Assembly (NCBI GenBank): GCA_039096225.1 | Contig: JBBPEB010000005.1 | Location: 801,501-865,500 of the forward strand | From: Blastocystis sp. Blastoise | Taxonomy: Eukaryota; Sar; Bigyra; Opalinata; Blastocystidae | Direction: 5' to 3' | DNA: 64,000 nt | Part shown: positions 7,292-46,866 of the stretch, in pieces | Layout of the letters: each line of letters opens with the position of its first letter | Numbering within the stretch: position 1 is the first letter of the stretch | Notes under the pieces: model-generated | What the model saw: the letters and a program-made list of their open reading frames with translations, nothing else | The model's database searches: none | What the model was told of the DNA's origin: nothing | Program-made: the position numbers and the translations under genes

Positions 7292-8836
7292 ACTTTATAA
7301 ACTCTTTATTTGCTATATTTATAATTTTTTTTTATTAATATTTAAAACATTATATCTATTTTATTTATTATTATTATTATTATATATATATAGGTGAGAC
7401 TTGTATAATAGTACATAATAATTGGATCAAAGGTATTGATGCCAAGATATATAGACTTAAAGAAATAGGTTATTATTATCCTTCTTCTTCTTCTTCTTCT
7501 TCTTCGTCAAATGATTATTATACAAGTAGTACAAATAATTATCTTACTTATTCTATCTCAAATCATCATGTATCTATTGGTATATATATATTTATATATA
7601 GAGAATCATATAAATAATAATATTATATATATATATATTAATATTCTTAATAATAATAAAAATATATATTTTTATATTATAGAAACTCAATTATTATATT
7701 TAAAATCAATGATTGCATTATCTCTTCAATTAAATCGTATTCTTGTTTTACCTGTTTTCTATATACAAGAAAGAGATATTGATATATTAAAAAGAATAAG
7801 TAAGTATAGAATACAAGCGGCTATACATAAAGGAATATATATATCAAAAACAAAAATGACAACAAAAATTGATAAATCTAAAAGTATATATATATATATA
7901 TATTGTTACATTCTGTTATATCTTTTTATATTGATTATATATATCTGTGGTTTTATTATATTTATTATTATATATATTAAATATATTATATATTATATAC
8001 TATCTATTTACTATAGTATTTAATACATTAAATGCATCTAATATAACTTCACCCTCTCCTTCTATTCCTCTCTCTATGTATAATCCTTATTATATACAAA
8101 GAGAAACAGATCCTAAGTATAATATGAAAAAATTAAAAAAATTAAAAACAGAAGAACCTCTTTCTGTAGGATTAAATGAAATTATATGTATTAATAAATT
8201 TAATAAATATTATCAAAATTATTATAGAGAACATGTATATAGATATATTTATTTTTTTTATTTATTATATAATTAATTATATACTATTTATATACTATAT
8301 TTATAATATATATTTATTTTTATTTATTATATAATTAATTATATACTATTTATATACTATATTTCTCATTATATATAGTCTTTCTTTAAGAATCCATCTA
8401 TACCTGCTTCCCTCTCTTCTTTATATTTAAATAATAAAGGCATATATTTCACTAGAAGTCCTCTAGACAATAAACATAATCCACAAATATCCTTTCTATA
8501 TTATTTATTCTATTTATTATAATATTTATATTTATTCTATTTATTATAATATTTATATTTATTCTATTTACTATTATATATATTATCTATATTATCTATA
8601 TTATCTATATTATCTATATTAGTACTCATTTATTATATATATCCCTTAATAAATACTCTATTTATTTACCTCCTTCCTCACCTATTGAAACTATAACTAA
8701 ATTTCTACGTATATATAAGAATCAGAAAATTCTTGATCTTCACAATCCTCCTTTATTTAATAACGCTACATTAAATACCTTTATACATCAAGAATCATTC
8801 ATTCCTTCAATTGCTGATCAAAAATATTGCTATTAA
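5704..8836 (+). CDS. Type II membrane glycosyltransferase, nucleotide-diphospho-sugar transferase family (PF03407-like)
   Basis: Ten exons: 5704-5769, 5805-5929, 6040-6313, 6447-6721, 6947-7161, 7394-7579, 7683-7883, 8017-8234, 8379-8486 and 8657-8836; 615 aa. Exon 1 encodes a signal anchor (MFRFVAIVSIVYALSILIC). Family landmarks in order are LFTDVDIIFLDNP (the DxD nucleotide-sugar/metal site, about residue 210), NSGFMYI, IVHNNWIKG, LNRILVLPVFY and a C-terminal DLHNPPLF segment ending in YC. This matches plant and protist Golgi transferases of the xylosyl/arabinosyl type; the donor sugar cannot be read from sequence. A run of Ser (TCT/TCA codons near 7485-7506) sits between conserved blocks. 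The last intron (8487-8656) has no GT donor and is read as a U12-type AT-AC intron; without it the frame stops early and the conserved C-terminus is lost. Confidence 0.88.
8268..8366 (+). repeat. Direct duplication inside an intron
   Basis: A segment of about 40 bp containing TTAATTATATACTATTTATA occurs twice in tandem within the intron between exons 8 and 9 of the glycosyltransferase gene. Confidence 0.7.
8487..8656 (+). other. U12-type AT-AC intron (glycosyltransferase gene)
   Basis: The donor is ATATCCTTT, the exact minor-spliceosome AT-AC consensus, directly after codon CAA. The branch-like motif TCCCTTAAT is at 8642-8650 and the intron ends AAATAC at 8656. Splicing is phase 0 and joins HNPQ to SIYLPP. 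No GT-AG pair rescues this junction. Confidence 0.85.
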
Positions 8837-24192: not shown

Positions 24193-30361
<6,169 letters not shown>

Positions 30362-44521: not shown

Positions 44522-46866
44522 ATGGATAATTCATGTATAATTGATTCTGAATCATCATTTATTTTGTTTTTGAATAATTCTCAGAAACAGTATATATTCT
44601 TTTATCAAATACTATTAATTCATCATAGATGCTCATCCCTAAGTAAAGATATAAGTGATAAGATTTCAAGGATCAATATTCATTGTGAAGAATATATTCA
44701 TAAATGGGAAATTGAAGAGAGTGAGTCTTCTATAAATCGATGTAGAAATGTTGTTCACCGAATTGAAGAGTGTTGTGATGTGTATAAAGAATATAATAGT
44801 CGTTTTTCTGGACAATTATGTCATCTTACTGATCAATTACTTTTTAAAACAAAAGACAATCTCAAATGGAATTTTTGTATTTTTCATATTTATTTTCTAT
44901 ATGTTTTTATTATATACAACTATAAATTCTAGCTAAAAAGTTATATGAGCAAGAAATTCAAGATATTCATTCTTATTTATATATCTTAAATGAAATAAGT
45001 TCTCAATTAATAAAAATAATGGATATTCTAATAACAATTAATCTTTTATGTTTTGTATATAAATATATGTATATATAATATGTAATAATTATATATATAT
45101 ATAGAAGAAACATGAAAATAGTGATATATATAGTAATGAAGAAAAGAATAAACTACTTTCATTTATAGAATTATGTATATATTCTTATTTATCCTATGCT
45201 TATATATATATATAGTGAATAATTCAGATAAAGTAATTATATATCTTCAAAAGAAGATTGATCGAATGGATATATCCTTATATATTATTATTATTATCTG
45301 AGATATTATTATTATTATTATCTGAGATATTATTATTATTATTATCTGAAATATTATTATTATTATCTGAGATATTATTATTATTATTATTATATTATTA
45401 TTATTATCTTTAATAATACACCATCATCTGTCTCACTTATATCAAATATTATTATTATTTATAAATGAATGTAAATTAATACCAAAGGACTATTTTGAAT
45501 TTATTCAAAATATAAATAACCATGCAAATGTATATATATATAAATAATACTATATATATATAGGAAACCATTTCAAAACCATTGTCTCAATCTACAGTTG
45601 ATATGTATTTACATATTTATAATATTATATATATATATAGTATTCCTTATTCTTTCCTTCCTTCTCCTATGGTTTCTCCATCTATATATCCATCTACTCC
45701 TTTTGTTACTAATAATAATACTATTAATAATATTATTAATGATAAAAATATAATTATAATTAATGATACAAATAATATTAATAATAATAAAAATGATAAT
45801 AATAATGATAATGATAATAATGATAATAACAAAATACTGTCTTCTCAACAAACTTCTAGAAAACGAGTTCTTTCTTATGATAACTCTATATCGAAACAGA
45901 AAGAATCAAATAATGATAATAATAATAATATTAAAGAAGAAGAAGAAGAAGAAGAGAAAGATATATCAAGAATCTATCATGAAGGAATAAAACGTGTTAA
46001 TTTATCCAATGAACAGTATATATATAATAACACTTATTCTTTATATATATATATATAGTTATAATAGAAAGCGACGAGTTTTATTTCAAGGTATTTAAAT
46101 GAATAGACAGCATATAGAATACTATTTATATAGATATCCATGATTATATATCCATACAAACTGATAAGAAAAACATTAATAATAAATATATAGTATATAT
46201 GAATATATTTATAAATACTATATATATATATAGTATTCGTTTTCTATATATAATCATGCTTGTTCAGAATTATTCCTCAAACATTATACATATATATGTC
46301 CCTATTGTTCTTTAAATCACATTATAAATATTCAAAAACAAAGTTATATGAATAAATATGTATATAATTAAATATATTTTTATTATTAGTCATATTATTA
46401 TAGATTCATATATATTATTTATATATATATAGGTAGATATAACATTTATTCCGTCTTGTCTTCCACAAGTAAATGTATTCATTCATATATATATATATAT
46501 ATATATTCTATTTCTTAGATAACTTCATCAAAAACACTATTGTTGCCATTATTACCGTATATATAATTATCTATTTATTTCATCTAATTGAACTGTAATA
46601 ATAATATATATATATATATATATAGACTAGTTCGATTTCCTTTAGTTCAATCAATACTATCTCAAAGCATCCAACACTTCAATTCTAAATCTTCAAATAA
46701 TTCTTCTGAAATATCTGATATTGAAGGAAACTTATTCTATAATACGAAATTATCAGATAACACAGAAAAGTATATATCATTTATTATAAGCCAAAATAAC
46801 CTTAATCTTCATAATCTATATAGCAATCTTAACTCCACTGATAGTTCAATTTCTATATCCATCTAA
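44522..46866 (+). CDS. Unknown protein, 520 aa, with helical N-terminus and an AT-AC intron
   Basis: 13 exons: 44522-44589, 44629-44876, 44933-45054, 45105-45174, 45216-45271, 45422-45529, 45564-45604, 45641-46015, 46059-46090, 46232-46359, 46433-46468, 46519-46556 and 46626-46866; the sum is a multiple of three. The start is the ATG at 44522; upstream codons are non-ATG. The N-terminal third looks coiled and charged (YIHKWEIEESESS, NEEKNKLLSFIEL). The middle is Pro then Asn/Asp-rich low complexity with a basic motif (RKRRVLFQ). A possible zinc site, CPYCSL, follows an HACSELFLKH segment. I recognise no family. The first intron (39 nt) is in frame without stops, so retention cannot be excluded. 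The intron 45272-45421 is AT-AC. Confidence 0.65.
45272..45421 (+). other. U12-type AT-AC intron (unknown 520-aa protein)
   Basis: The donor is ATATCCTTA directly after codon GAT; the intron ends AATACAC at 45421 with branch-like TATCTTTAAT 8-9 nt upstream. It is phase 0, joining KKIDRMD to HHHLSHLYQ. There is no GT near the donor. Its body is a minisatellite of about four (TTA)n-TCTGAGATA units. Confidence 0.8.

Follow-up and report, generated by a model that had tools for sequence, protein, structure and literature searches.

The window, a stretch of 64,000 nucleotides from Blastocystis sp. Blastoise (stramenopile, Opalinata; C31:801501-865500 of the genome searched, 33.3 Mb in 34 contigs), holds on its forward strand a gene that matches the deposited protein WA158_007587 of this organism; a search of the host protein for homologues outside its own genome at E 0.001 found none. 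Within this gene, we analysed a 150-nt segment (45272-45421, +) that opens with ATATCCTTA and closes with TCTTTAATAATACAC. Firstly, ATATCCTTA forms a U12-type AT donor at 45272-45280 (+), and the ATATCCTT of the U12-type AT-AC subtype is found exactly at 45272. Secondly, TCTTTAAT at 45407-45414 (+) departs by a single C-to-T change from the U12-type branch-site consensus near the intron 3' end, TTCCTTRAY, and belongs to a type that is enriched genome-wide when paired with the donor. Thirdly, the segment terminates in a CAC acceptor (45419-45421, +), whose AC lies at a spacing of 13 from the branch site; in a filtered set of 33 AT-AC introns described below, this spacing spans 12-17 and is 13-15 in 30, and 97% have T or C at base -3. 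If the AC at 45419 is used instead, the reading frame is broken shortly downstream. The interior contains no GT and three AGs, all of them GAG. Retention of the segment brings in-frame stops at 45299, 45323, 45347 and 45368, while its excision keeps the frame open and yields ...IDRMD^HHLSH... in phase 0. Thus the AT donor, the terminal AC and the phase-0 joining reported by the first-pass annotation all hold at exactly these positions. Its description of a repeat body of about four units is also borne out: Tandem Repeats Finder reports a minisatellite at 45283-45407 (+; unit ~24 nt, 5.5 copies, 90% matches) with four TCTGA[AG]ATA cores, of which three read GAGATA and the fourth GAAATA. The minisatellite sits between donor and branch site and leaves both signals intact, and it is plausible that U12 splicing survives repeat expansion; if so, AT-AC minor introns can have tandem-repeat bodies.

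The exon upstream of the segment (45216-45271, +) has an open frame following an ...ATATATAG acceptor, and downstream the required frame is open through a 36-codon exon (45422-45529, +), itself followed by a 34-nt GTATATAT...ATATATAG intron. The deposited model instead drops 45233-45271, misses the 36-codon exon and removes a single 331-nt GT-AG intron (45233-45563, +), which would be a task for the major spliceosome and would make the AT-AC look of the segment accidental. We reproduced the WA158_007587 model exactly with 12 GT-AG introns, 45233-45563 among them; removing the latter keeps the frame, and at three other GT-AG introns the deposited annotation is better than our own initial gene model. 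However, the other 11 introns measure 36-73 nt and start with GTAT, whereas 45233-45563 measures 331 nt and starts with GTAA; the first 39 nt that it removes score like exon, and it ignores a donor, a branch site and an acceptor at proper spacing. On our exon-versus-intron score (whose intron side was trained in part on two gaps, with unchecked ends, that separate matched pieces of WA158_007585), the AT-AC stretch reads -0.24 bits/nt and the disputed 39 nt +0.19, beside 0.16 to 0.38 for the other exons of the gene and -0.19 to -0.51 for the GT-AG introns of our gene model; the disputed 108 nt of exon 45422-45529 are neutral (0.00 bits/nt), which counts against the AT-AC model. GC content is 25.6% in the 39-nt tail, 19.4% in exon 45422-45529 and 10.7% in the AT-AC stretch. 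Replacing the 331-nt intron by the AT-AC intron and the 34-nt intron gives a protein of 536 aa with one terminal stop. We consider it unlikely that the deposited model is correct here; if the AT-AC reading is right, 49 residues are missing from the deposited gene model owing to the AT-AC intron. The segment might also hold no intron at all, its repeat being exonic or untranslated, as AT-rich triplet repeats do occur within exons of the host gene; against this stand the four in-frame stops, the intron-like score and the removal of the stretch in both the AT-AC and the deposited models, and we judge it very improbable.

The first-pass annotation had counted three AT-AC introns in 64 kb and called this a high density. 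Three candidates are indeed found, the other two being 8487-8656 (+; 170 nt, phase 0), which is also filled by a repeat (8502-8642, period 27, 4.1 copies), and 13460-13395 (-; 66 nt, phase 0), which has no in-frame stop, so that the frame does not force its removal. The density, however, is not special to this window, the genus having been described as AT-AC-rich before. On a rough figure of ~350 AT-AC introns genome-wide, 0.7 would be expected per window and the Poisson P for at least three is ~0.03, for a window that was not randomly picked. The ~350 comes from 4-5 of 68 sampled ATATCCTTA places judged by eye, scaled by base +9 (24% A and 76% T among the 33 filtered introns). The combined motif-plus-coding score of the 8487 candidate (23.1) exceeds the 99% points of both nulls (20.5 for random ATAT sites, 21.9 for random positions), and that of the 13460 candidate (14.3) falls between the two 95% points (11.7 and 16.0, in the same order). 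The score of 45272-45421, 7.0, lies under the 90% points of both (8.2 and 10.3, respectively). Because the combined score does not single it out, the case for 45272-45421 rests on its motif set, on the genome-wide class and on the gene model. Identification of the 13460 gene as Gemin2-like was rejected after a Pfam search without a match. Elsewhere in the window, 25277-26173 is a very long ATT-type triplet tract in which poly-I, poly-Y and poly-N frames are open on both strands. A long frame of the window gives a 100% match to a deposited Blastocystis sp. Blastoise protein.

We then consider the class genome-wide. Of the enrichment of the donor signal that had been anticipated, only the composite form stood. 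The bare word was dropped as evidence, being enriched neither in the window, where RTATCCTT occurs 13 times against 10.8 expected, nor in the genome, where the count of ATATCCTTA is 1308 and that of the reversed word 1857. Of a sample of 68 of these 1308 places (early in list order, C1-C3), scored against random ATAT sites, 6 lie above their 95% point (3.4 expected), 2 above the 99% point and none above the maximum, so most ATATCCTTA words are not introns. What exceeds chance is the combination of donor, branch site and AC. ATATCCTT followed by CCTTAAY after 25-55 nt was found 38 times against 19 for the reversed-pattern control; with CCTTAAY after 56-86 nt and an AC, 36 places (32 distinct donors) against 6; and with TCTTTAAY, the branch-site type of 45272-45421, and YAC, 38 against 1. 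Two near-identical families make up 14 and 7 of the last 38, the remainder being 17 against 1. The strict GT counterparts were not enriched genome-wide, at 6 against 5 reversed and, with AG, 1 against 4. The proposed comparison of AT-AC with GT-AG proportions therefore comes out for AT-AC, which with strict motifs is the commoner here (36 vs 6 against 1 vs 4; Fisher P 0.005 for 36/6 against 1/4); among such candidate introns, AT-AC has all but displaced GT-AG in the genome-wide set. Since the patterns admit only strict forms of donor and branch site over a limited range of lengths, weaker GT-AG minor introns may still occur. AT-AC introns can also be spliced by the major spliceosome, as known in human from the accessible part of PMC8280824, and 45272-45421 might be one of these; its donor and branch site are both U12-type, though, and the pair is enriched genome-wide, making this extremely improbable. 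Taken on its sequence, 45272-45421 is very probably a U12-type AT-AC intron in a protein-coding gene of Blastocystis sp. Blastoise. As a separate observation, the two families, found at 14 and 7 places, lie 4.25-4.36 kb from each other in six instances (C8, C13, C14, C26, C30 and C31), and at one locus (L190) both lie inside a cysteine-rich multi-copy gene with a third AT-AC intron by eye.

Flanking sequence was read at each of the 70 distinct places that the 25-55 nt and 56-86 nt patterns gave in forward orientation. Two had no usable 3' end, and 33 of the other 68 passed a filter requiring an AC end, a spacing of 12-17, no stops and a coding score > 5 (13/36 from the 25-55 nt pattern and 20/32 from the 56-86 nt pattern); one duplicate-locus pair among them leaves 32 distinct introns. 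The best-scoring end of the 35 failing places is AC in 20 and AG in 15. Filtered introns measure 63-110 nt, a range bounded by the search patterns, and fall into the three phases as 16, 10 and 7. AT-AC junctions restore conserved sequence in four genes: junction peptides match Pfam for RAD51 (6.3e-13) and NAGLU (3.4e-20), while for uL15, a kinase and again RAD51 the match is to solved structures and spans the junction. The RAD51 intron (L051, AC end) fails the filter yet looks right by homology. The protein of the 45272-45421 gene and the L055 peptide gave only weak Pfam matches, below the cut-off, and a Pfam search of the L061 and 13460-gene peptides found none. Two further places fail the filter but look right by eye: L073, which presumably encodes a Sec7 domain, and L081, in what we take to be a MYND-finger gene, with a possible AT-AG minor intron.

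As U12 introns of Blastocystis ST1 are published, the class is already known in the genus. The accessible text of PMC5608401 counts 346 U12-type introns in ST1, along with four snRNAs and seven proteins, and that of PMC10639083 gives 253 minor introns, 196 (77%) of them AT-AC, with 49% in phase 0 and a median of 39 bp. As far as these texts go, the present genome resembles ST1 in being AT-AC-rich and phase-0-rich and in having minor snRNAs; phase 0 accounts for 16/33 here, against a 22% average in the portion of PMC10639083 available (P 0.0007). It differs in intron length (median 39 bp there; 63-110 nt in the 33 here, and 150 nt with a minisatellite at 45272-45421) and in that strict GT-AG U12 introns are undetected here (1 vs 4). 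Human minor introns, according to the available sections of PMC8280824, are mostly GT-AG (69%, vs 24% AT-AC), whereas strict-motif AT-AC predominates here. No paper naming Blastocystis together with Blastoise turned up in a literature search.

We searched the genome for minor spliceosome components and found U11, U6atac and U12: U11 (62.9 bits) and U6atac (63.8 bits) lie above their Rfam cut-offs, U12 (46.8 bits, E 6.1e-7) below its cut-off of 53. In 14 prokaryote control genomes, a lax threshold (E up to 10) gave matches in 3 genomes for U11, in 11 for U6atac and in 7 for U12, none over cut-off. A CENATAC-family gene is matched as two segments scoring 41.2 and 30.7 bits (controls 0/14). U12 retains GAGUAAGGA and U11 retains AAAGGG; the U11 5' end, AUAAAGGGC, is complementary to the donor, with predicted duplexes of -4.3 to -6.6 kcal/mol for CCTT donors. 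The U12, U6atac and U11 genes (L009, L012 and L019) share the 16-base CTTCTAATCAA[AG]ATGT 41-48 nt upstream, which was absent from the window and from the other loci examined and is probably a shared snRNA promoter element. At 45272-45421, U11 is predicted to pair with ATATCCTT and U12 with TCTTTAAT, after which the minor spliceosome would join exon 45216-45271 to exon 45422-45529 in phase 0. Human CENATAC promotes AT-AN introns, as the accessible part of PMC8280824 has it; the AT-AC termini and the CENATAC-family gene found here parallel the human A-type (AT-AN) minor introns that it serves there.

The unexpected part, and the one worth following, is U6atac, which reads GAGCCGAGAGAAGG where the Rfam consensus has GAAAGGAGAGAAGG. 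Its donor-pairing bases AAAGGA have become AGCCGA in the only strong copy found, which lacks the AAGGA complementary to the donor, and the donors remain CCTT. With three CCTT donors its duplexes are predicted at -1.3 to -2.8 kcal/mol, where the Rfam consensus would reach -5.4 to -7.1 kcal/mol; a CGGCT donor would give -11.1 kcal/mol. A donor class fitting the changed U6atac, RTATCGGCT, was rejected: its genome-wide count is 71, the reversed control giving 63, and a reading by eye of 30 of the 71 loci showed no clear intron. A genome-wide search for a second U6atac with AAAGGA (at most 3 mismatches) gave 3 places, one of them the known U6atac gene, against 3 in the control. L068/L069 were discarded as a second U6atac, having no U6atac match even at the lax threshold, though L068 keeps AGGAGAGAAGGTTA; the next-best U6atac match, L013, is an ordinary U6 gene (94.1 bits), intact at ACAGAGA. 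Either this lineage can do without the U6atac:donor helix or has rewired it, or a working U6atac escaped our searches or lies outside the assembly. Since U11 reads CCTT and U6atac (AGCCGA) pairs weakly, a second check of the donor would fall to proteins, the CENATAC candidate among them, or to another register. That a minor spliceosome specialised for AT-AC introns has lost or rewired this helix is a tentative reading, which we hold possible rather than probable. In human cells, according to the part of PMC4980772 available, CC5/6GG donors are rescued by U6atac GG14/15CC, and completely so only when U11 carries GG6/7CC. The natural U6atac found here likewise lacks the GG that pairs with the donor CC, as does the engineered suppressor used with the human P120 U12 intron; in that assay, as far as the same text goes, the donor was changed to GG in match, whereas here the donors stay CCTT and U11 keeps GGG. 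Among literature titles, most subscription papers being out of reach, none concerned a U6atac with changed donor pairing. If the reading is right, a U6atac mismatched to its donors offers a test in nature of what that base pairing does, and a natural U6atac uncoupled from the donor would show how far the helix is needed. On C21, ~6.6 kb separates the U6atac gene from that of ordinary U6, both being on one strand.
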